Assembly: GCA_030429345.1 (NCBI GenBank) | Contig: JAUIFJ010000012.1 | Location: forward strand, 83,898-132,511 | Source of the DNA: a bacterium | GTDB taxonomy: Bacteria > CAIWAD01 | DNA length: 48,614 nucleotides | Direction: 5' to 3' | Shown here: positions 34,425-48,614 of the stretch, one piece after another | Layout: each line of letters begins with the position of its first letter | Position numbering within the stretch: the first letter of the stretch is position 1 | Program-made: the position numbers and the translations under genes | Notes under the pieces: generated by a model | Databases searched by the model: none | What the model saw: the letters and a program-made list of their open reading frames with translations, nothing else | What the model was told of the DNA's origin: nothing

Positions 34425-37400
34425 CTAGGGCGCCAGGGCGCGTACCCGGAAGAACTGTCTTCCCGCCAGCGCGGAGAGCGCGATGTCCAGCTGCGTGTCC
34501 CCTGTACTCTGCCAGAGGCTCCAGCCGCTCGCGCCGTGGGTGAACTCCGGACTGGTGTATACCTCGTAGCTCGCAGCACCCGGGACCGGCTCCCAGCCGA
34601 GACGCAGGCTCTCCTCCGACGCCAGGTACTCGATGCGCAGGTCCGCCACCCCGGCTGCGGGCCGGTGCAGGATATGGAAGCGGTCAAGTACGTGACCGGA
34701 CTGGCTGAGCAGGCTCAGCTTGAGGAACCAGTGGCCCAGGGGGACGGGGATCGGATCGATGAAGGGCGGCAGGATCTGTCCCGAACCGCCGCCGGAACCG
34801 CTGCCGTCCCCGGGGGCATTCTCTGTCGGGCAGACATAGTAGCTCGTCCCCAGGCTGCCCGAATCGTTGTCGTCGCCATAGCTGTCGAACTGGCCCGTCC
34901 GGGGATCGAACCAGCCATACTGTGTATCTCCTGTCCAGGGATCCATGAAGTCGAGCAGGAGCGTGCCGTCCGGCGCGGGCAGGTTGTGGATCGAGCTGAG
35001 TGTGACACTGTGCGCGCCTCCACCCTCCCATTCCAGCGTGGCGATCACATCCTGGCCCTGGGACTCCCCCTGGTCCTGCATGCCGGCGACCCCCTCGTCG
35101 CCGTGATGCACCGTGTAGCCGCCGCCGTTGTCGTCGATCCAGTCCTGCAGCCCGCTGCGCAGATCGGAGTGACTGGTGCCCGCCCCGCCCACGTTCGTGT
35201 TGCAATAGATCCCCAGCAGGGTGATCAGGTCCTCCCCCGACCAGCCGCCCGTCACATTGGTGCCATAGGTGGCGTCGAGCCATTCCAGGCAGGCGGCGGC
35301 GGCCGTGGGGGAACAATGGGTGTCGCTGATGCCGCGCTGGTACTCGTGGGGTACGGAACGCTGCCATTCCAGCTCCTTGAGGCCCAGCTTCCAGTCGATG
35401 GAGACGATCTCCCCCGGCCAGGGCGTCGTCAGTGAAAGGAGGATCTCCTCCTCTTCCAGTTCCAGCTCGCGGGGCAGTCCGTCGTCCACGAGTTCGGGAT
35501 CCAGCGCCGGCGTATACCAGGTCGTCGCCGGCACGACCAGCACCTCGCCGTCGTCACAGAGGGCGCGCGCCTCGAAATGGATCTCGGCACCGGAGGGCGG
35601 CACCGGAAGCAGCATCGGATCGAAATCCAGCCACCAGCCGAACTCGCCCTGTGTGCCGCTGGCCTCGGTCGCCATGCGCGAGGCCTGTCCGTCGCTGTCC
35701 GAGCCCAGCGGGATCCAGCCGATGCCGTCGGGACTGGCGAAAAAGCCGACTTCCTGAATGCGATTGCAGGGATCATTCGCCAGCAGCCAGGCCGTGGAGG
35801 TGCTGGCCGAGAAGGAATTGTGCCAGAACTCCGCCCGCTCGCCCCAGGGGCCGATGACCAGGCTGGCATTGCTTCCCCCGCTGACGAAGGCCAGGTCCAG
35901 GTCGAAGGTGCCGGAGGCGTTTCCGGCGCCTTCGACGACGACGAAACAGGTCCCGGCGTCCAGGCAGCATGTGAGCCAACTGCGTGTGCTTCCCACTCCG
36001 CAGACCGTGCTGTTGTCGTTGGAGGCGAGCACCGTGCTGCCGTCCGCGGCCGTCAGCCGCAGGACCGTGTCGAAGTTCGTGTTCGGTCCGCAGGTCTTCG
36101 CGCGCAGGACGCCGCGGCCCGACACCTGCACCTTGTACCACACATCCTTCGCGGCGCCGAAGCCCTGGTCGCGATAGCTCGTGCTGGATCTTGTGTCACT
36201 GTAGGGCAACGAAGAGACGAGTATCGGATCCTCGCAGCAGTCGCCCACCGGCACGCTGGAGGGAATCTGCACCGCCGCCATGTTGTAGGATCCCTGCTGC
36301 AGGGAGGCCGGACCGGCCTGTTCCACCTGCACGTAGTAGTCGTCGATGGCCTCGATCTGCAGACAGGGATCAATCACGTAGCCCGTGTTCTCCCCCTCGC
36401 AGACACCTGCCTGGTTCGATTCGCCGAGCAGCAGCAGTCCCGAAGGTCCCATGCCCCACAGGCGCAACACGGGATCAAAGGTGTCCGGCTGCAGCAGAAG
36501 AGCCAGCTCTCCGGGCTGCCAGCCCAGCAGGTGGAACCAGTCGCTGTCCTCGCCGTGATCGCTGCTGCCGTGCATCGGATCCGTGATCCACCAGTCGACA
36601 GCCGTCTCCGGCATGCCGTTCGGTTCCACCTCGAAGGCGCTTCCCGGCTGGGGCGAAACGGGAGGACAGGCGGCCGTGAAGAGCAGATCCAGGCGCGCCG
36701 CGCCATCCGCGCTGCCCGCACCCTCGAGGACCACGTAGTACAAACCGGCCTCCAGCGAGGTCGTCGTCATGCGGGAGCCGTTCGAGGCGACGCAGCTGTT
36801 GTCGTCACTGTCCAGCACCGTCTCACAATCCGCGTCGAGCAGCCAGAGAAAGGTGTCGAAGTTGGTCGGCGAAAGGCAGGTCTGGCTGACCAGGGTGCCC
36901 GCCTCGTCCAGCTGGACCGGAATCCAGATGTCCCGCGCCGCGTTCAGGCCCTGGTCGCGGAAGGGACTCGTCGTGGACAAGGTGTCCGACCAGGGAAAGG
37001 AGCTGACCGTCGGCAGCGGAAAACTGCAGCAGTCCCCCTGGGGGACGCCCCCGGAGGGCTGGAAACTCGTGCTCAGCTGGTAGCTGCCGTTCGTGGGAGG
37101 AGACTGGGCGCTGTGCGCCACCTCGACCACGACCGGACCGTCGACGACAAGGTCCCGGCAGGGATCCCATTGCACGGTCGTGTTCTCCGGCTGACAGAAC
37201 TCTCCTTCGTCCGTCTCGCCGAGGAAGACCAGGTCGGGACCCGAATAGCCCCACAGCCGCAGGACCGGATTGAAGAAGTCCGGTCGCAGCTGGATCTCGA
37301 GCAGCGCGTCCGGAGGCGGGGGATCGATCAGGAAACAGTCCGTGTCCCATTCGAAGAGCTGGCCCCAGGCCGTTTCCATCGGGGGCAGGGGCTGGGCCAT

Positions 37401-37565
37401 CATCGGATCGTCGTTGGGCTCCATCTCCGGCAGGCCCACCGGTTCCACCGGTTCACAGGCGACGGCCTGTCGTGGCCCCATGAAGAGCAGGGCCAACAGG
37501 ATGAACAGCAGGATCCACAGAAAAGACAGGCCGCCGCGGCGACCGGAGTTCAGGGTCAGGAACAT
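34425..37565 (-). CDS. Giant secreted protein with C39/papain-like domain
   Basis: A 1046-residue exported protein. The ATG at 37565 has GGAGGG upstream; residues ~12-37 form a signal helix (ILLFILLALLFMG...AVAC). The first ~550 residues are four alternating cysteine-containing beta-sandwich domains of two types (PNDD..DTDCF/DSDWF type and FPWSDT/LPYSDT type, each with a FDT.L.L core), resembling PPC domains. Residues ~730-900 hold a cysteine-peptidase-like set: Cys751 (THCSPTAAA, as in the CGPTA motif of C39 peptidases), His852 (GGAHSVTL) and Asp875 (DFMDPWTG). The remainder is an FN3-like end. No sorting domain. A secreted protease is likely; the fold assignment is by motif only. Confidence 0.83.
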   Translation of the reverse strand: MFLTLNSGRRGGLSFLWILLFILLALLFMGPRQAVACEPVEPVGLPEMEPNDDPMMAQPLPPMETAWGQLFEWDTDCFLIDPPPPDALLEIQLRPDFFNPVLRLWGYSGPDLVFLGETDEGEFCQPENTTVQWDPCRDLVVDGPVVVEVAHSAQSPPTNGSYQLSTSFQPSGGVPQGDCCSFPLPTVSSFPWSDTLSTTSPFRDQGLNAARDIWIPVQLDEAGTLVSQTCLSPTNFDTFLWLLDADCETVLDSDDNSCVASNGSRMTTTSLEAGLYYVVLEGAGSADGAARLDLLFTAACPPVSPQPGSAFEVEPNGMPETAVDWWITDPMHGSSDHGEDSDWFHLLGWQPGELALLLQPDTFDPVLRLWGMGPSGLLLLGESNQAGVCEGENTGYVIDPCLQIEAIDDYYVQVEQAGPASLQQGSYNMAAVQIPSSVPVGDCCEDPILVSSLPYSDTRSSTSYRDQGFGAAKDVWYKVQVSGRGVLRAKTCGPNTNFDTVLRLTAADGSTVLASNDNSTVCGVGSTRSWLTCCLDAGTCFVVVEGAGNASGTFDLDLAFVSGGSNASLVIGPWGERAEFWHNSFSASTSTAWLLANDPCNRIQEVGFFASPDGIGWIPLGSDSDGQASRMATEASGTQGEFGWWLDFDPMLLPVPPSGAEIHFEARALCDDGEVLVVPATTWYTPALDPELVDDGLPRELELEEEEILLSLTTPWPGEIVSIDWKLGLKELEWQRSVPHEYQRGISDTHCSPTAAAACLEWLDATYGTNVTGGWSGEDLITLLGIYCNTNVGGAGTSHSDLRSGLQDWIDDNGGGYTVHHGDEGVAGMQDQGESQGQDVIATLEWEGGGAHSVTLSSIHNLPAPDGTLLLDFMDPWTGDTQYGWFDPRTGQFDSYGDDNDSGSLGTSYYVCPTENAPGDGSGSGGGSGQILPPFIDPIPVPLGHWFLKLSLLSQSGHVLDRFHILHRPAAGVADLRIEYLASEESLRLGWEPVPGAASYEVYTSPEFTHGASGWSLWQSTGDTQLDIALSALAGRQFFRVRALAP

Positions 37566-38411
37566 GATACCCTCCGCGCGTGTGTGTTCGGCCGCCGACG
37601 CCCTGCCGACGGCAGTGCAGGCCAAGGCGCTCGCGGGGGACCGTGATTGATTCGGGCGCGCTTGTACCACGAAAGGAGCACACCGTGATCCGGATTGTCA
37701 ACTCAAAAGGGCTTGCCAGGAATTTTTATTGTTGTTAATTCCACGGTTTGTATTACACCATGAACTGAATGCCGGAAACCCAAGGAAATCAGCCTGCGAA
37801 AAGATGTCAACCAGGATCGATACTTCTTCGGGCAGCCTTTGAGGATACTCATGCAGCCGATAACCCCGCCCAGGGAAGCCCGCCGGAAGGAGCGGTTCGC
37901 AAGGCCCGCCCGGCAGTACCCCCACAGGAAGCGACCACGAGACCGCCCTGCCGTGTAATGCTTCCACTCTTCTCCGCGGCCCTCTGCACCTCTGCGCTCT
38001 CTGCGCGAGGAAGAGTACTGCAGACGGTCATCTCCAAAAACGAAAAACGGCCGCCGGCAAGGCCGACGGCCGCTGGTCATCTCCAGATGACCTCTCCTTC
38101 CCCTCCCGAATGGGATTTTGCTGGGAATTTGACCCGCACGCGGGTCCAGGCAGATTCTTTCGAAGGAACCGGAAGACGGGAAACCAGGTTCCCGCTCGCC
38201 AGCGCCTGTGCACAATCAATCATAGCGGTCGGGATGCACACGTGCTCCACTCGACCCGCACTCCGTGACGATGATCACACGCGCTCCGCTTTACGGCCAT
38301 TCTCTCGCTTGACCAGAAAGAATGATCGCCTGGCGGAACAGGTCGTGGAATATAGGGATTCGGGGTGGAGCACGCCAAGCCCCTCTGGGCATCGACGCGC
38401 TTGGCAAAGCT
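37566..38411. other. Gene-free stretch with repeat and hairpin
   Basis: About 850 bp with no credible gene; the ORFs that exist have no start signals or family-like sequence. It holds a CTCTGCG-type low-complexity repeat (37968-38018), related to 22507-22552, and a GC hairpin near 38046-38072 (CGGCCGCCGGC...GACGGCCG). AT content rises near 37690-37780, probably the promoter zone of the giant protein gene. Confidence 0.6.
37968..38018. repeat. Low-complexity CTCTGCG-type dispersed repeat
   Basis: Imperfect CTCTGCG/CTCTGCAC units, second copy of the type at 22507-22552. On the minus strand it translates as an RRERRGAEGRGEE-like peptide, a known artefact of such repeats. Confidence 0.6.
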
Positions 38412-40832: not shown

Positions 40833-41210
40833 TCAGGAAAGGGCGTGCAGGATCTTGCGGACCCGCTGAAGGGTGACCGGCTCGCGGTCGAGCACGCTGA
40901 GGCAGTTCTCGGTGCCCAGCTGCTCGCAGAGTTGACGCATGCGCTCCAGGTCCTCGAAGGTCAAGGCCTCCAGGTGTCGTTGGCGAATCCAGCCCTGCAG
41001 CCGGTCTTCCCCCTGACCATCCAGGAAGACAATCGTGCAGCCCAGCTGATCGAAGACCTTGCGCAGCGAATCAATCTGCGGCGCGAAGCCCTCCTTGTTG
41101 AGCATGTCGTGCACGGTACTCGTGCTCAGGCCGGCCATCTGCGAGAGACGTCGCGCGCTGATCCGCTGTTCCGCCAGCTTGCGATGCAGCATCTCTTTCC
41201 AGTTCGTCAT
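40833..41210 (-). CDS. Small helix-turn-helix regulator
   Basis: A 125-residue XRE-type DNA-binding protein. The helix-turn-helix is at residues ~18-38 (SARRLSQMAGLSTSTVHDML). The rest is an unrecognised helical tail with conserved-looking FEDLERMRQL. It resembles phage- or plasmid-type repressors without a toxin partner nearby. Lies upstream of gapA with ~115 bp between; regulation of gapA/pgk is possible but not shown. Confidence 0.78.
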   Translation of the reverse strand: MTNWKEMLHRKLAEQRISARRLSQMAGLSTSTVHDMLNKEGFAPQIDSLRKVFDQLGCTIVFLDGQGEDRLQGWIRQRHLEALTFEDLERMRQLCEQLGTENCLSVLDREPVTLQRVRKILHALS

Positions 41211-41471: not shown

Positions 41472-41475
41472 CCAG

Positions 41476-41549
41476 TGGGCGATACGGGACTCGAACCTGT
41501 GACCTCTGGTATGTGAGACCAGCGCTCTAACCAGCTGAGCTAATCGCCC
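41476..41549 (-). tRNA. tRNA-Val(CAC)
   Basis: A 74-nt cloverleaf on the minus strand: acceptor GGGCGAT (41549-41543) paired with ATCGCCC, discriminator A, anticodon loop CTCACAT (CAC), T-loop GTTCGAGTC. CCA is not encoded. Confidence 0.95.
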
Positions 41550-41860: not shown

Positions 41861-42670
41861 ATGGCTGAAGACAAACATCTTCCCCAGCAGATCGGCAAGC
41901 GATACGCCCACGTCAAGTGGATCGCCAACCTGGTCCTCTCCCTGATCCTGGTACAGGTGGCCGCCTATGACGCGAGCCGTGTCCCATGGTTCCTGTATCA
42001 CTGGCTCACCATGCTGGTCGGCGTGTTCGTGCGCATGCCCGCGAATGACCGCTTCAACCTGTGGCTGTGCTACAGGATCCTGCCGGAATCGCTCCTCCCC
42101 GAGCGCCTGCGCTACTGGAGAGGCATGCTCTATGTCCTGCTGGACTGCCTGCAGTACGGCGTATACTATTGCTGGCCCTTCTTCCTCGTCCTGCCCGTAT
42201 CACAGGCCCTTTCGCTGTCCGTCCTGGTCGCGCTGAGCTTTTTCGTGCCGATCCTGCTCAACCGGGAGGCCTTCCGGATCACGCCGGACGGGGGCTGCCG
42301 CTTCCGGTGGCTGCCCGCGCTGCAGACGAAATGGATCGGGGGCCTGCACACCCTGGGATGGCTGGTCCTGGCCTATGTGCAGCTGGACCATCCCCCGGCC
42401 CTTGCGATCTGGATCACGGCGAGGGCGATTCCCCTGGTCGGCTCACGGCTGCTGCTGAACCAGACGGGCAGCCAGATCCTCTACATGCTGCTCTTCAGCT
42501 ACGGCATCTTCGTGCTTGATTACGGGAGCACCTTCCAGAGCAACCTGGTCTTCGCCGGCGTATTCGCCGCGGCCTTCCTGGTTCTGCTTCCACACATGGT
42601 CGAGAACCTTCACTCCATGCGGCAGTACCGCCAGGCAAGACGCATCAATCTGGGCGCAGATCCGAATTGA
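41861..42670 (+). CDS. Polytopic membrane protein, founder-like member of a local family
   Basis: A 269-residue protein with about six hydrophobic helices and basic ends; no known family recognised. It is GC-rich like the chromosome. It aligns by eye with the three AT-richer proteins at 45025, 46041 and 47054. The shared stretch has an Arg, then a hydrophobic run with Asp and Gln (VLLDCLQYG here, VFFDQTQKS there), followed by PFFLVLP/PFYLVAP. Later segments with TPDGG versus LPNGA also match. Resemblance is remote, so homology is inferred. Isolated from the array by transposase-related repeats. Confidence 0.75.
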   Translation: MAEDKHLPQQIGKRYAHVKWIANLVLSLILVQVAAYDASRVPWFLYHWLTMLVGVFVRMPANDRFNLWLCYRILPESLLPERLRYWRGMLYVLLDCLQYGVYYCWPFFLVLPVSQALSLSVLVALSFFVPILLNREAFRITPDGGCRFRWLPALQTKWIGGLHTLGWLVLAYVQLDHPPALAIWITARAIPLVGSRLLLNQTGSQILYMLLFSYGIFVLDYGSTFQSNLVFAGVFAAAFLVLLPHMVENLHSMRQYRQARRINLGADPN

Positions 42671-43112: not shown

Positions 43113-43568
43113 TCATTCCCCTTCGAACAGGTGTTCATCGCTGAAATCGATCCCGTGTGATCGAAGCAGAAATCTGTATTCGTCTTCGAAGCTCATGCTC
43201 GAATGATGCAGTTCCTGATTCTGGATGTACTGCCGTACAGTGGGAACCTTGGATACACTTACTGCGAATGCGCCATATCCCTTCTGCCATCGGAATTCAC
43301 CGGCATACCCCTGCTCCCAGTTGAGCCACCGGGATGAATGAGCCTTTACATGGCGCAATACCGATGCGACCGATTGCGTCAGCGGCATTCCTGCAAGAAT
43401 ATGTACATGATCCGGCATGCCCCCGATTTCGATCACATGCGCCTTCCGGGACTCGAAGAGGCTCGCCAGATAGGGGTACAGCGAAGAGCAGAAGGGCGGG
43501 ACAAGGTCAGGCCGTCGACGGCGTGTACTAAAGACAAGGTGTACATGGAGTCTCGAATAGCTTCCCAT
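43113..43568 (-). CDS. REP-associated/IS200-like Y1 transposase
   Basis: A 151-residue HUH single-strand transposase. The metal-binding His-x-His is His54-Val-His56 in MPDHVHIL, the catalytic tyrosine is Tyr114 in VRQYIQNQ, and HVHLVFSTRRRR lies at the N-terminus. Length fits the Y1 family. ATG 43568 was chosen since the fold starts there; the frame upstream to 43715 has no family-like sequence. No TnpB. It is flanked on both sides by palindrome-ended repeats, the arrangement of RAYT genes, which move such repeats. Confidence 0.87.
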   Translation of the reverse strand: MGSYSRLHVHLVFSTRRRRPDLVPPFCSSLYPYLASLFESRKAHVIEIGGMPDHVHILAGMPLTQSVASVLRHVKAHSSRWLNWEQGYAGEFRWQKGYGAFAVSVSKVPTVRQYIQNQELHHSSMSFEDEYRFLLRSHGIDFSDEHLFEGE

Positions 43569-43840
43569 TGCATGATTCCTGATTGCTGTTTCGGCACCAC
43601 TACTGCGGGCCTCAGTATCAACAGAATTGGTTTGTAGTGCAATGCCGCACTGCTGAATGACCGGGAGATCACAGCGTATCGTCCACACCGTATGACACAT
43701 TAATGGAAATCCCAATATGTCAGCTGGGCAGGACGCCTGAGGCCCTCCCTGTGGAGATTTCCGCTTCTGGGCTCTTCCGGTTTGAATCGTGGGATGCCGC
43801 TGCGGGTTTCGTGCTACACCGCTGCGGGTTGCGTGCTACA

Positions 43841-44684
43841 CCGCTGCGGGCTTGCGGCCGCAGCTACCCTGAAACACCGCTTCGCGGAGGGCGATTCTTG
43901 TGTAATGGAAGACTTCCGGTGGGGTGGCTACTTGATACAAAAGATGTGGACCATCGCATTCGTGATAGGGATGGACAGTTCTACGAATGTTGAACCATCC
44001 TCTGCCCATCGCCGGCTCCATAAATCCGCGAAGCGGAGGCTGAAGGTAGCTGCGGCCGCCAGCCCGCAGCGGACTCAAGGATCCCCCCTAAAATCCCTCC
44101 AGTTCCCGCGGGTTTCGTGCTACACCGATGCAGGTTTCGTAATACACCGCTGCGGGCTTGCGGCCGCAGCTACCCTGAAACACCGCTTCGCGGAGGGCGA
44201 TTCTTGTGTAATCGAAGACTGCGGGCGGAGTGGATTCTTGATCAGTGAGATGTGGACCATCGCATTTGTTATAGGGATGGACTGTTCTCCGAATGTTGAA
44301 CCATCCTCTGCCCATCGCCGGCACCACAAATCCGCGAAGCGGAGGCTGAAGGTAGCTGCGGCCGTCAGCCCGCAGCGGACTCAAGGATCCCCCCTAAAAT
44401 CCCTCCAGTTCCCGCGGGTTTCGTGCTACACCGCTGCGGGTTTCGTAATACACCGCTGCGGGCTTGCGGCCGCAGCTACCCTGAAACACCGCTTCGCGGA
44501 GGGCGATTCTTGTGTAATCGAAGACTGCGGGCGGAGTGGATTCTTGATCAGTGAGATGTGGACCATCGCATTTGTTATAGGGATGGACTGTCCTCCGAAT
44601 GTTGAACCATCCTCTGCCCATCGCCGGCACCACAAATCCGCGAAGCGGAGGCTGAAAGGTAGCTGCGGCCGTCAGCCCGTAGCG
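43841..44684. repeat. Three tandem palindrome-ended elements, 306-bp period
   Basis: Units at 43841-44072, 44147-44378 and 44453-44684, exactly 306 bp apart. Each is about 232 bp with ~48-bp imperfect terminal inverted repeats (left CCGCTGCGGGCTTGCGGCCG, right ending CAGCCCGCAGCGG). Spacers contain GCTACACCGCTGCGGGTTTCG repeats and a fragment matching the small-ORF segment PRELEG. MITE- or BIME-like; no gene inside. Confidence 0.88.
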
Positions 44685-44704
44685 TTCTACAGGATCCCCC
44701 ATAA

Positions 44705-44853
44705 AAACCCTCCAACTCCCGCGGCTTTCCCGCATCCGCCACGTCCTTGCCGACGACAATGTCCCCGCTGACTTGGCCAATGCAGACCGTCGTGAAGTTC
44801 CGTGCCTGGGCCTTGCTGATGGCGTCCTGGAGCTCGCTGCTCTTTTTAATCAC
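44705..44853 (-). pseudogene. Small ORF family, copy A, 3' end lost
   Basis: From GTG 44853 it encodes a near-family N-terminus (SELQDAISKAQARNFTTV) and core (GDIVVGKDVADAGKPRELEG). The family C-terminus (GTDIELI) is then replaced by sequence running into the 306-bp repeat, suggesting truncation by repeat insertion or recombination. It sits divergently upstream of the membrane gene at 45025. Confidence 0.7.
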
Positions 44854-45024
44854 AGATTGGAATTTTGGGATCCTGGAGCAATATCGACGGGTTCAGGTCG
44901 TGCTACACCCCTGCGAGCCTGCAGACGCCGTGCAATCAATCGTCACCCTGGGTGTGCATCCTGGAACCGGAATTTGCTACTCTTGTCTGGCGGTGTCGCA
45001 AATCTGATCGATCGTGGGGGACCA

Positions 45025-45819
45025 ATGGACGTGCGGATGCGTCGACATAACAACCGCATACTCGTACAGTACCTGGAACACATCGTTTTTTGTTTTAAGA
45101 CTCTGTTGCTGGTACAGATTGCTTTCGTACAGCCTTTGCTGGCACTACTATGGATTCCGCACTACTTCATTTCCCCAGCCGGAATACTTTTCTGGAAGAA
45201 AGACATTTGGACCTATATCCCAATTCAAATAACATGGGTGGTCAGTGTGCTCTTGCCTTTCCCCAGGGAAAAGACACTGACACTAAGAATGACTATTCTA
45301 GTCTTCTTCGACCAAACCCAGAAGTCCTTTCAATGCTTCATACCATTCTACCTGGTAGCTCCATGGTCATGGGTCATATCAGCATGCATCCTGGTTGGAA
45401 GCGTTTGCACTTGGTTGTCTTTCCGAGATAGAACCTACATTCTCAGACTCCCAAATGGTGCGTTGAGATACACAAATGAGAAAGCAGGTTCCTGGTTCAG
45501 GGCCATCACCCTGCTTGCAGTATTGACTCTATTCAGGGACCAACTCCTACATCATCCTGAACTTCTTATTCCTGCTCCCATGCTATTGTTGTATGTGGCG
45601 AATGCCCTCTGGATAGGTCTGGCACCCATTATTCCAATTATGCTACTGCTGCAGAACGCGCTCTATCGATACATCTTATGGAACTCACATGCCGTAGGTC
45701 TGATTCTAATCCTGCTATTTCTAGTACTCATCATTTACTTATGGAAGCCATTGAAAGAAGAGTTTCGAATCAGCCGCCAGAAACGCCTGATTCGAAAACT
45801 CAAATCACCTACAAATTGA
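45025..45819 (+). CDS. Polytopic membrane protein, array member 1
   Basis: A 264-residue protein with about six hydrophobic segments and a basic C-terminus. It shares WKKDIW, FFDQTQKSF, PFYLVAPWSWV, TYILRLPNGALRY and QNALYRYILW with the proteins at 46041 and 47054 (roughly half the residues identical by eye). Codon and base use are much AT-richer than in the first 42 kb, suggesting transfer. ATG with GGGGGA upstream. Its stop is 4 bp from the stop of the convergent small ORF. No function recognised. Confidence 0.82.
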   Translation: MDVRMRRHNNRILVQYLEHIVFCFKTLLLVQIAFVQPLLALLWIPHYFISPAGILFWKKDIWTYIPIQITWVVSVLLPFPREKTLTLRMTILVFFDQTQKSFQCFIPFYLVAPWSWVISACILVGSVCTWLSFRDRTYILRLPNGALRYTNEKAGSWFRAITLLAVLTLFRDQLLHHPELLIPAPMLLLYVANALWIGLAPIIPIMLLLQNALYRYILWNSHAVGLILILLFLVLIIYLWKPLKEEFRISRQKRLIRKLKSPTN

Positions 45820-45823
45820 ATTC

Positions 45824-46012
45824 CTAGATCAGTTCAATGTCGGTTCCTGCCGCGTTTTCTTCTGTCCCCTCCAACTCCCGCGGCTTTCCCGCATCCGCCA
45901 CGTCCTTGCTGACGACAATGTCCCCGTTGACTTGGCCAATGCAGACCGTCGTGAAGTTTTGGAGTTGGGCTAGACTGTCAGGAAATACTATTCTTTGCAA
46001 GCCGTTGTGCAT
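45824..46012 (-). CDS. Small ORF family, copy B
   Basis: A 62-codon ORF converging on membrane gene 1. It has the family core (NFTTVCIGQVNGDIVVSKDV) and the C-terminal GTDIELI. Its first ~18 codons differ from copies A and D and overlie the promoter region of the next membrane gene, so the N-terminus may be a fused remnant rather than functional. No obvious Shine-Dalgarno. Confidence 0.5.
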   Translation of the reverse strand: MHNGLQRIVFPDSLAQLQNFTTVCIGQVNGDIVVSKDVADAGKPRELEGTEENAAGTDIELI

Positions 46013-46022
46013 GCTCTAAAAT
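45995..46022 (+). promoter_or_regulatory. Promoter of membrane gene 2
   Basis: TTGCAA (45995-46000), 16-bp spacer, TAAAAT (46017-46022), 18 bp before the ATG at 46041. The corresponding region of gene 3 keeps TTGCAT but a poor -10. Confidence 0.5.
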
Positions 46023-46040
46023 GAAAGTGGCGAAGCCAGG

Positions 46041-46820
46041 ATGGAAGTACGGTTTTATCCACATAACAAGCGTAAAGTCATCGAGTATCTGCCTACTGTT
46101 GCTTTTGCATTAAGGTTTCTGATTGTAGCACAGCTTGCGTTCGAATTGCCTCTCCTGGCGTTGCTTCTTCTCCCCCACTATGTCCTTTCGCCGTTTGTGG
46201 AGATGATCTGGAAGAAAGACCTCTGGAACTACAGCGCCGTCCAACTGGTCTGGCTGATTCGATTCCTGCTGCCCTTGCCTGACGAGAAAACGAGAACCTT
46301 CCGAATGACTGTTCTTGTATTCTTCGATCAAACCCAGAAATCCTTCGAGTACCTGCTTCCATTCTACCTGGTCGCTCCGTGGTCCTGGGTTTTCATTGCT
46401 TGCTTCGTGCATGGGGGAGTTTGCACCTGGATCACATTCAGAAACAAGACCTATCTTCTGCGACTCTCCTCAGGAGCATTGAAGTATATTAGCGACACGG
46501 CCGGTTCTGGATTCAGATTTGTCGCATTACTATTGCTTCTCGTGTTGACATGGGAACAGGTATCCCTGCACCCGGAAGTCCTGTTGTCCGCACCATATCT
46601 TCTGCTGCATTCCTTCAATGCTCTAGTGATCGGCAGAGGACCAATGATCCCGATCATGATCATGCTGCAGAATTCGCTGTACCGGTCAGCATTGTGGGAT
46701 TCTTATGTCATAGATTTGATTCTCATTCTGCTGAATCTGGTGTTGTTCACTTTTGTTCTGGATCCTCTCAAAGAAGAGATTCGAACCTGGCGACAGCTAC
46801 GCAAGGTTCGAAATCTCTAG
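46041..46820 (+). CDS. Polytopic membrane protein, array member 2
   Basis: A 259-residue protein, by eye about 80% identical to array member 3, and starting MEVRFYPHNKR. Conserved WKKDLWNY, FFDQTQKSFEYLLP and PWSWVFIACF, with about six membrane segments and a basic tail (RTWRQLRKVR). ATG at 46041 with a weak CCAGG upstream. It and member 3 derive from a recent ~1.0-kb tandem duplication that included upstream DNA. No function recognised. Confidence 0.85.
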   Translation: MEVRFYPHNKRKVIEYLPTVAFALRFLIVAQLAFELPLLALLLLPHYVLSPFVEMIWKKDLWNYSAVQLVWLIRFLLPLPDEKTRTFRMTVLVFFDQTQKSFEYLLPFYLVAPWSWVFIACFVHGGVCTWITFRNKTYLLRLSSGALKYISDTAGSGFRFVALLLLLVLTWEQVSLHPEVLLSAPYLLLHSFNALVIGRGPMIPIMIMLQNSLYRSALWDSYVIDLILILLNLVLFTFVLDPLKEEIRTWRQLRKVRNL

Positions 46821-46836
46821 CCTGGATCTTGCGGAA

Positions 46837-47025
46837 TCAAGGCAGTTCGATGTCCGCTCCACTCTGAGTCACCGCAGTCCCCCTCCAACTCCCGCGGCTT
46901 GCCCGCATCCGCCACGTCCTTGCCGACGACAATGTCCCCTTTATCCTCCCCGATGCAGACGGTGGAGAAGTTATTTGCTGGGCTAGGCTGCCTGGAATTA
47001 CTATTTTTTGCATGCCGTAGTACAT
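46837..47025 (-). pseudogene. Small ORF family, copy C, frameshifted
   Basis: The core NFSTVCIG...GDIVVGKDVADAGKPRELEG is present. The N-terminal piece matching copy B (GSLAQ) and the C-terminal GADIEL lie in a different frame from the core. At least two frame breaks therefore make this a decayed copy. It converges on membrane gene 2. Confidence 0.65.
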
Positions 47026-47053
47026 GCAACAGAAGAGAAAGTGGCGAAGCCTG

Positions 47054-47845
47054 ATGGAAGTTCGGTTTTATCCACACGACAAGCGTTCACTCGTCGAGTA
47101 TCTGACAATTGTGATCGTCTTATTCAGGTTGCTGATTGTAGCACAGCTTTCGCTCGAGGCGCCCCTCCTGGCGTTGCTTTTGCTCCCTCACAATGTCCTT
47201 GCACCGTTTGTGAGAATGATCTGGAAGAAAGACCTGTGGAACTACACCGCCGTCCAACTGGTCTGGCTGGTTCGATTCCTGCTGCCTTCGCCTGACGAGA
47301 AAACGAGAACGTTCCGAATGACTGTTCTGGTATTCTTCGATCAAACCCAGAAATCTTTCGAGTACCTTCTTCCATACTACCTGATCGCCCCGTGGTCCTG
47401 GGTTTTCATCGCTTGCTTCGTGCATGCGGGAGTTTGCACCTGGATCACATTCAAAAGCAAGACCTATCTTCTGCGACTCTCCTCGGGAGCCTTGAAGTAT
47501 ATCAACGACACGGCCGGTTCGGGATTCAGATTTGCCGCATTGCTCTTGCTTGTCGTCTTGACCTGGGAAGATGTTTCCGTACACCCGGAAATCCTTTTGC
47601 CCGCTACATTTCTTCTGCTGCATGCCTTCAATGCGCTTCGGATCGGCAGAGCACCAATTCTCCCGATTCTCTTCTTGCTGCAGAATTCGCTGTATAGGTC
47701 AGCGTTGTGGGATTCTCACGTTATTGATCTGATATTCATTCTACTGAATCTGGTGTTGTTCATTTTTCTTCTGGATCCCCTCAAGAAAGAGATTCGAACC
47801 TGGCGACAAGTTCGCAAGGTTCGAAATCTCTCGTCAGAATCGTAA
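47054..47845 (+). CDS. Polytopic membrane protein, array member 3
   Basis: A 263-residue near-duplicate of array member 2 (MEVRFYPHDKR start; WKKDLWNY; FFDQTQKSFEYLLP; PWSWVFIACFVH). ATG 47054 aligns with the start of member 2; its upstream DNA (AAAGTGGCGAAGCC) is also shared. Its stop is 7 bp from that of the convergent small ORF at 47853. Function unknown; integral membrane location is clear. Confidence 0.85.
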   Translation: MEVRFYPHDKRSLVEYLTIVIVLFRLLIVAQLSLEAPLLALLLLPHNVLAPFVRMIWKKDLWNYTAVQLVWLVRFLLPSPDEKTRTFRMTVLVFFDQTQKSFEYLLPYYLIAPWSWVFIACFVHAGVCTWITFKSKTYLLRLSSGALKYINDTAGSGFRFAALLLLVVLTWEDVSVHPEILLPATFLLLHAFNALRIGRAPILPILFLLQNSLYRSALWDSHVIDLIFILLNLVLFIFLLDPLKKEIRTWRQVRKVRNLSSES

Positions 47846-47852
47846 ACAGGGA

Positions 47853-48059
47853 TTAAATCAACTCAATGTCCGTACCGTTATCTGTAGCTGCCTCACCTTC
47901 CAACTCCCGCGGCTTGCCCGCATCCGCCACGTCCTTGCCTACGACAATGTCCCCGTTCACCTCGCCAATGCAGACCGTGGTGAAGTTCCGTGCCTGGGCC
48001 TTGCTGATGGCGTCCTGGAGCTCGCTGATGTCGATTTTCCTGCTGGGTACGGTAGCCAT
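47853..48059 (-). CDS. Small ORF family, copy D, intact
   Basis: A 68-residue product beginning MATVPSRKIDIS, with an ATG preceded by AAGGAG eight bases upstream, the only copy with a good ribosome binding site. It contains SELQDAISKAQARNF, the core TTVCIGEVNGDIVVGKDV with one Cys, DAGKPRELEG, and an acidic tail ending GTDIELI. Not membrane-like and no known family. It converges on membrane gene 3. The repeated pairing with membrane genes suggests partnership, but the near-identical DNA of the core in all copies could also reflect a recent repeat. Confidence 0.7.
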   Translation of the reverse strand: MATVPSRKIDISELQDAISKAQARNFTTVCIGEVNGDIVVGKDVADAGKPRELEGEAATDNGTDIELI

Positions 48060-48494: not shown

Positions 48495-48604
48495 CAGGCT
48501 CCGGTTGAGTCCGTAGATTTGTGCAAAAGCAGCTAAGCCCTTGAAAAAGGAAGGGCCATGGCCTTCTTTAGTGGTGCATAACCAAATCACTAAGGAGGAA
48601 AACC

Positions 48605-48614
48605 ATGGCCCAGC
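48605..48614 (+). CDS. Start of a gene cut by the window end
   Basis: ATG GCC CAG preceded by AAGGAGG with a 7-base spacer. Only three codons are visible, so nothing more can be said. Confidence 0.45.

Follow-up and report, generated by a model that had tools for sequence, protein, structure and literature searches.

An orphan membrane-protein gene family in tandem array with convergent small genes in a bacterial accessory insertion

ORFan families that have expanded by tandem duplication in accessory islands share a set of features: homologues are seen in one genome only, the tandem copies differ in age by degrees, GC content is low, transposases and REP-like repeats are adjacent, and the site is empty in sister genomes. 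The locus described here has the same features, but differs in that its repeating unit contains a convergent small gene, the core of which is homogenised beyond the main gene. In integron cassette arrays a short repeat stands after each gene, and CDI/Rhs loci carry displaced toxin/immunity modules in tandem.

The present array, too, has a short repeat after each gene; in contrast to integron cassettes, however, the genes are paralogous, no conserved hairpin is found and no integrase is seen left of the array. With displaced CDI/Rhs module arrays the locus has in common that small two-gene modules stand in tandem in accessory DNA, a likeness in the way of working only (compare PMC3150448, on toxin/immunity genes of this type). 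Here, by contrast, no CdiA/Rhs gene or toxin domain is found among the searched proteins, the partners are convergent and the small gene is decaying. An array of this kind was not found described in a literature search.

Genomic setting of the array

The stretch of DNA analysed, referred to as the window, comprises the final 48.6 kb of a 132.5-kb contig from a draft genome of 4.24 Mb in 92 contigs. For comparison, the host family is represented by four genomes only, and the same class by one further genome. The features of the accessory region are, in window coordinates and with the evidence in brackets:

41475 to 41549, minus strand: tRNA-Val(CAC), which bounds the accessory region on the left (ARAGORN, Rfam, synteny)
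41861 to 42670, plus strand: M0, membrane protein of 269 residues (BLASTP, shuffle control, GC3)
43113 to 43568, minus strand: IS200-like (Y1) tyrosine transposase gene (Pfam PF01797, 2.4e-23; NCBIfam NF033573 above cut-off)
43802 to 44713, plus strand: REP-like palindromic repeat of 306 bp in three copies (repeat comparison, genome search)
about 44707 to 44853, minus strand: s0, small-gene copy that lost its C-terminus to the REP-like array (94% DNA identity to s3 over 133 nt)
45025 to 45819, plus strand: M1, polytopic membrane protein of 264 residues (ORF, paralogue comparison, dN/dS, hydropathy)
45824 to 46012, minus strand: s1, 62-codon ORF with the core in frame, C-terminus GTDIELI and an altered N-terminus (copy alignment)
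46041 to 46820, plus strand: M2, polytopic membrane protein of 259 residues (evidence as for M1)
46837 to 47025, minus strand: s2, 62-codon ORF with the core out of frame, probable pseudogene (copy alignment)
47054 to 47845, plus strand: M3, polytopic membrane protein of 263 residues (evidence as for M1)
47853 to 48059, minus strand: s3, intact small gene of 68 codons with the ribosome-binding site AAGGAG (ORF, copy alignment)
48503 to 48614, plus strand: IS256/Mutator-type insertion sequence, left end only (further copies in the genome; a sister copy matches Pfam PF00872 at its N-terminus)

In sister genomes the tRNA-Val is kept beside gapA, and in three genomes of the sister genus synteny places gapA, tRNA-Val and an LptD-type gene directly next to each other, the last having been typed as LptD-like through a related gene that matches Pfam LptD_2. 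In the present genome the tRNA-Val is followed by M0, the IS200-like Y1 transposase gene, the REP-like array, the M/s array and the IS256/Mutator-type end, and the lptD homologue is on another contig, C89, with 264 bp between it and the contig end. The simplest reading of these adjacencies taken together is that the locus was inserted 5′ of the tRNA, between it and lptD, the position of lptD on the far side being deduced from the contig end. An earlier reading of the DNA from its sequence alone had assigned the array to an accessory region, which agrees with an insertion relative to the sister genomes. It had also called the region visibly AT-richer than the rest, as is borne out by 46–50% GC per kb against about 60–70% over most of the window; taken as a whole, the region of the array has 45–50% GC compared with ~66%.

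The REP-like array contains the palindromes TCCGCGAAGCGGA and GCTGCGGGC, and related palindromes have dozens of matches genome-wide that are often clustered. The stretch of transposase gene and REP-like array (43113–44713) may represent a REP/RAYT-type system; the score of the RAYT model for the transposase gene is below its cut-off. On the other side, the IS256/Mutator-type end has about 11 further copies in the genome, most of them at contig ends. About ten other contigs bear this end and the majority are broken there, so that the element is among the chief reasons why the assembly of this genome is fragmented. In the Pfam check the 72-residue query for this element deviated from the locus by one residue (E for D). 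As the contig ends inside the element, the right flank of the array lies beyond view.

Left of the insertion, a gene for a Cro/C1-type HTH protein (40833–41210) is situated between gapA and tRNA-Val, where the three sister-genus genomes have no room for it. Further left, 34425–37670 encodes a large, secreted-looking protein whose frame spans up to 1,081 codons and contains repeated segments, e.g. PWSDTLSTTSPFRDQGLNAARDIW and PYSDTRSSTSYRDQGFGAAKDVW; DNA resembling this stretch is also located close to lptD in the sister genomes G001 and G002.

The membrane genes M1 to M3 and the candidate relative M0

M1, M2 and M3 are arranged head to tail on the plus strand with start-to-start distances of 1,016 and 1,013 bp, M3 having an alternative in-frame ATG upstream at 47024. 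The coordinates confirm the sequence-only reading as regards three polytopic membrane proteins of 264, 259 and 263 residues that alternate with ORFs on the opposite strand. Its derivation of the second and third members from a tandem duplication of ~1.0 kb is equally well founded, since M2 and M3 are spaced by 1,013 bp and are 81% identical in amino acids and 86.5% in nucleotides; the duplicated DNA of ~1,013 bp starts at about 45866/46880. M1 and M3 are 52% identical.

Differences between M2 and M3 are distributed over the three codon positions as 36/18/51, those between M1 and M2 as 101/53/148. By NG86, YN00 and maximum likelihood dN is about 0.10–0.11 versus a dS of 0.23–0.31 for M2–M3, and about 0.35–0.39 versus a dS of at least 1.3 for M1–M2. 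With dN well below dS in these pairs, M1–M3 are genes under purifying selection. Judged by sequence divergence, M1 split from the M2/M3 lineage long ago. The GC content of the three genes is 45–49% and their GC3 51–60%, in contrast to a GC3 of 88–90% in neighbouring chromosomal genes. According to hydropathy the M proteins have five to six hydrophobic segments and a positively charged C-terminal tail, on which account they would act in the cell envelope.

Upstream of M1–M3, M0 matches M1 in BLASTP with E 3e-4 and scores higher against the M1–M3 profile than 1,999 of 2,000 local shuffles of itself. It is a probable distant relative of M1–M3, graded no higher because the shuffle control is close. 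Its codon usage is near-native (GC3 84%), and none of the window ORFs beside it is a small ORF of the kind facing M1–M3.

Neither M1–M3 and M0 nor the small proteins have an above-threshold match in Pfam, NCBIfam, PHROGs or PADLOC, and for M0, M1, M3 and the small ORF no PADLOC or PHROG match is found at E 0.1 either. Matches of M2 to DUF7942/SCO4225 (E 0.07–0.24) are below the cut-offs and absent for M1 and M3, and were dismissed as chance. A sequence search of the PDB, with a four-member profile in the case of M, gave no significant match for the M or small proteins, and plasmid and phage collections gave none for the array proteins. Viral contigs and about 85,000 species genomes were also scanned with peptide patterns, a method reaching close relatives only, and gave no match. 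The M profile (A1) was run on 386 related and diverse genomes and on 195 genomes of one other phylum, one search lacking a positive control, and the profile of the small family (A4) on the 386 related and diverse genomes; both found the host genome only. The two families of the repeatedly duplicated unit, which the sequence-only reading did not recognise, are therefore without relatives in profile libraries, PDB, plasmids, phages, viral contigs and genomes as searched. As in an orphan family, homologues outside the lineage went undetected in the searched sets while the M copies are under purifying selection.

The AlphaFold model of M3, built from four sequences, has a pLDDT of 51, which is too weak for fold comparison, and Foldseek returned no match with E <= 0.001. 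For the small protein alone (pLDDT 62) a helix and three strands are suggested, and the model has no structural match.

The small genes and the homogenisation of their cores

The stops of s1, s2 and s3 are 4, 16 and 7 bp away from those of M1, M2 and M3, respectively, in convergent orientation, as the earlier figure of 4–16 bp implies. Among the four copies, only s3 possesses a ribosome-binding site as well as the full 68 codons. In s1 the original N-terminus is gone, as are the SD and clear start signals, and the altered N-terminus coincides with the region upstream of M2. s2 has lost one nucleotide just before the core and gained one just after it. These compensating indels lie exactly at both core edges, so that the frame of the core is shifted and the ORF is still open. 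The view that each membrane gene faces a member of a small-ORF family consequently holds at the level of ORFs but cannot be extended to intact genes, the core of s2 being misframed and the N-terminus and SD of s1 being lost. Likewise, the earlier inventory was right about three M genes and their facing ORFs but overlooked the fourth small copy s0 and the probable relative M0.

The 32-codon core aligns without gaps across all four copies, and, when read in the s3 frame, the differences fall mainly on third codon positions (s2–s3 1/1/9, p = 0.001). In the GTDIELI tails of s1 and s3 the sense-codon differences are synonymous only. Taken with the synonymous-only tail, this third-position bias marks the small ORF as belonging to a family that codes, or once coded, for protein. 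Its product is acidic with a net charge of -6, the adjoining membrane proteins being basic. That s3 has stayed intact and s1 is constrained may signal that M has a need of the small protein even now, a point against the hitch-hiking reading given below.

Comparison of third-position divergence between small and membrane genes distinguishes two situations. For s2–s3 it amounts to 9/32, similar to the 51/259 of M2–M3 (p = 0.26), which implies that in the M2/M3 units each membrane gene was duplicated along with its facing small gene. For s0–s1, which flank M1, it is only 2/32 versus 148/259 for M1–M2 (Fisher p = 1e-8), and for s1–s3 8/32 versus 157/263 for M1–M3 (p = 2e-4). The cores of s0 and s1 are thus far more alike than the adjoining membrane genes, from which their homogenisation follows. 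Gene conversion or unequal crossing-over would be the simplest cause, to judge from the aligned copies; the small-gene core could instead have been inserted more recently, which would also account for the similarity of s0 and s1. All copies come from one genome, so these comparisons are without an independent evolutionary replicate.

Origin and role of the array

The reading favoured here, and held with somewhat better than even confidence, is that of an orphan, lineage-restricted family of inner-membrane proteins that was expanded by recombination between flanking small-gene repeats, with the small copies hitch-hiking. The repeating unit in the accessory insertion would be one membrane gene plus one convergent small gene. 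Recombination between the small-gene repeats, acting as homologous handles, would duplicate whole units, and the same process would even out the small-gene cores. Presumably, the membrane protein is the product kept by selection; the small gene is a real protein gene of which one copy is intact, while the others, presumably carried along, decay.

The sequence-only reading had been reminded of defence, toxin or immunity modules, a hint that gained no positive support. In a two-component conflict module, the small protein would act as partner or antitoxin to M, itself a toxin, an effector or an immunity protein, and duplication would serve to diversify the pair. Repeated duplication of AT-rich genes at an accessory site beside transposases fits such a module, as does an acidic small protein beside basic membrane proteins; yet M and the small ORF have no PADLOC, PHROG, Pfam or NCBIfam match, and the genes are convergent rather than operonic or co-transcribed. 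Moreover, the small partner is broken in two of four copies next to intact M genes, and M0 is partnerless. Decay of this kind is not expected if each M needs its own small partner, although a single intact small gene could act in trans for several M genes. We regard a conflict module as unlikely. It is also quite improbable that the M proteins belong to an already known transporter or envelope family and have diverged too far for these searches to recognise them: they are polytopic, with length and hydropathy usual for transporters, and the low-confidence model (pLDDT 51) makes fold comparison uninformative, but neither the profile libraries nor the PDB sequence search with the four-member profile yields a significant match.

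Other explanations attribute the role of the small gene to its DNA or RNA. The convergent stops, 4–16 bp apart, would allow its transcript to run into the 3′ end of M as an antisense RNA, coding being secondary, and the 5′ part of s1/s2 is the DNA just upstream of M2/M3 with a promoter-like site at 45994–46022, sites of this type occurring at chance level regionally. Third-position bias and the synonymous-only tail, however, point to protein coding, the s2 and s3 cores fold near shuffle level with base pairs not all kept between copies, and in Rfam the tRNA alone is above threshold at the locus; such a regulatory gene is therefore distinctly unlikely. A far more improbable case is an integron-like or site-specific cassette array in which the ~95-bp small-ORF core is the recombination site. 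The core is sharp-edged and stands after each gene, and s0 and s1 are able to form a long hairpin (z -2.7 for s1), but the hairpin is poorly formed in s2 and s3, the core evolves as coding sequence, the genes between the repeats are paralogues and not unrelated cassettes, and no integrase is present among the ORFs near or left of the array, the right flank lying beyond the contig end. An attC-like hairpin was discarded on the grounds that fold z-scores range from -2.7 to +0.7 and structures differ between copies.

A small but real chance is given to an undescribed two-protein envelope module, in which a polytopic membrane protein of ~265 residues and a 68-residue acidic soluble partner, serving several paralogues in trans, are being amplified and diversified in this lineage. 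Were the small protein such a shared partner, the pair would form an envelope module of a new kind. Under the favoured expansion of an orphan family, the locus is a real case, though probably an ordinary one, of tandem duplication enlarging a gene family specific to its lineage in a region rich in mobile DNA. The array would then clearly illustrate the growth of an orphan membrane-protein family, with duplicates under selection and a facing companion that decays and is homogenised by recombination.
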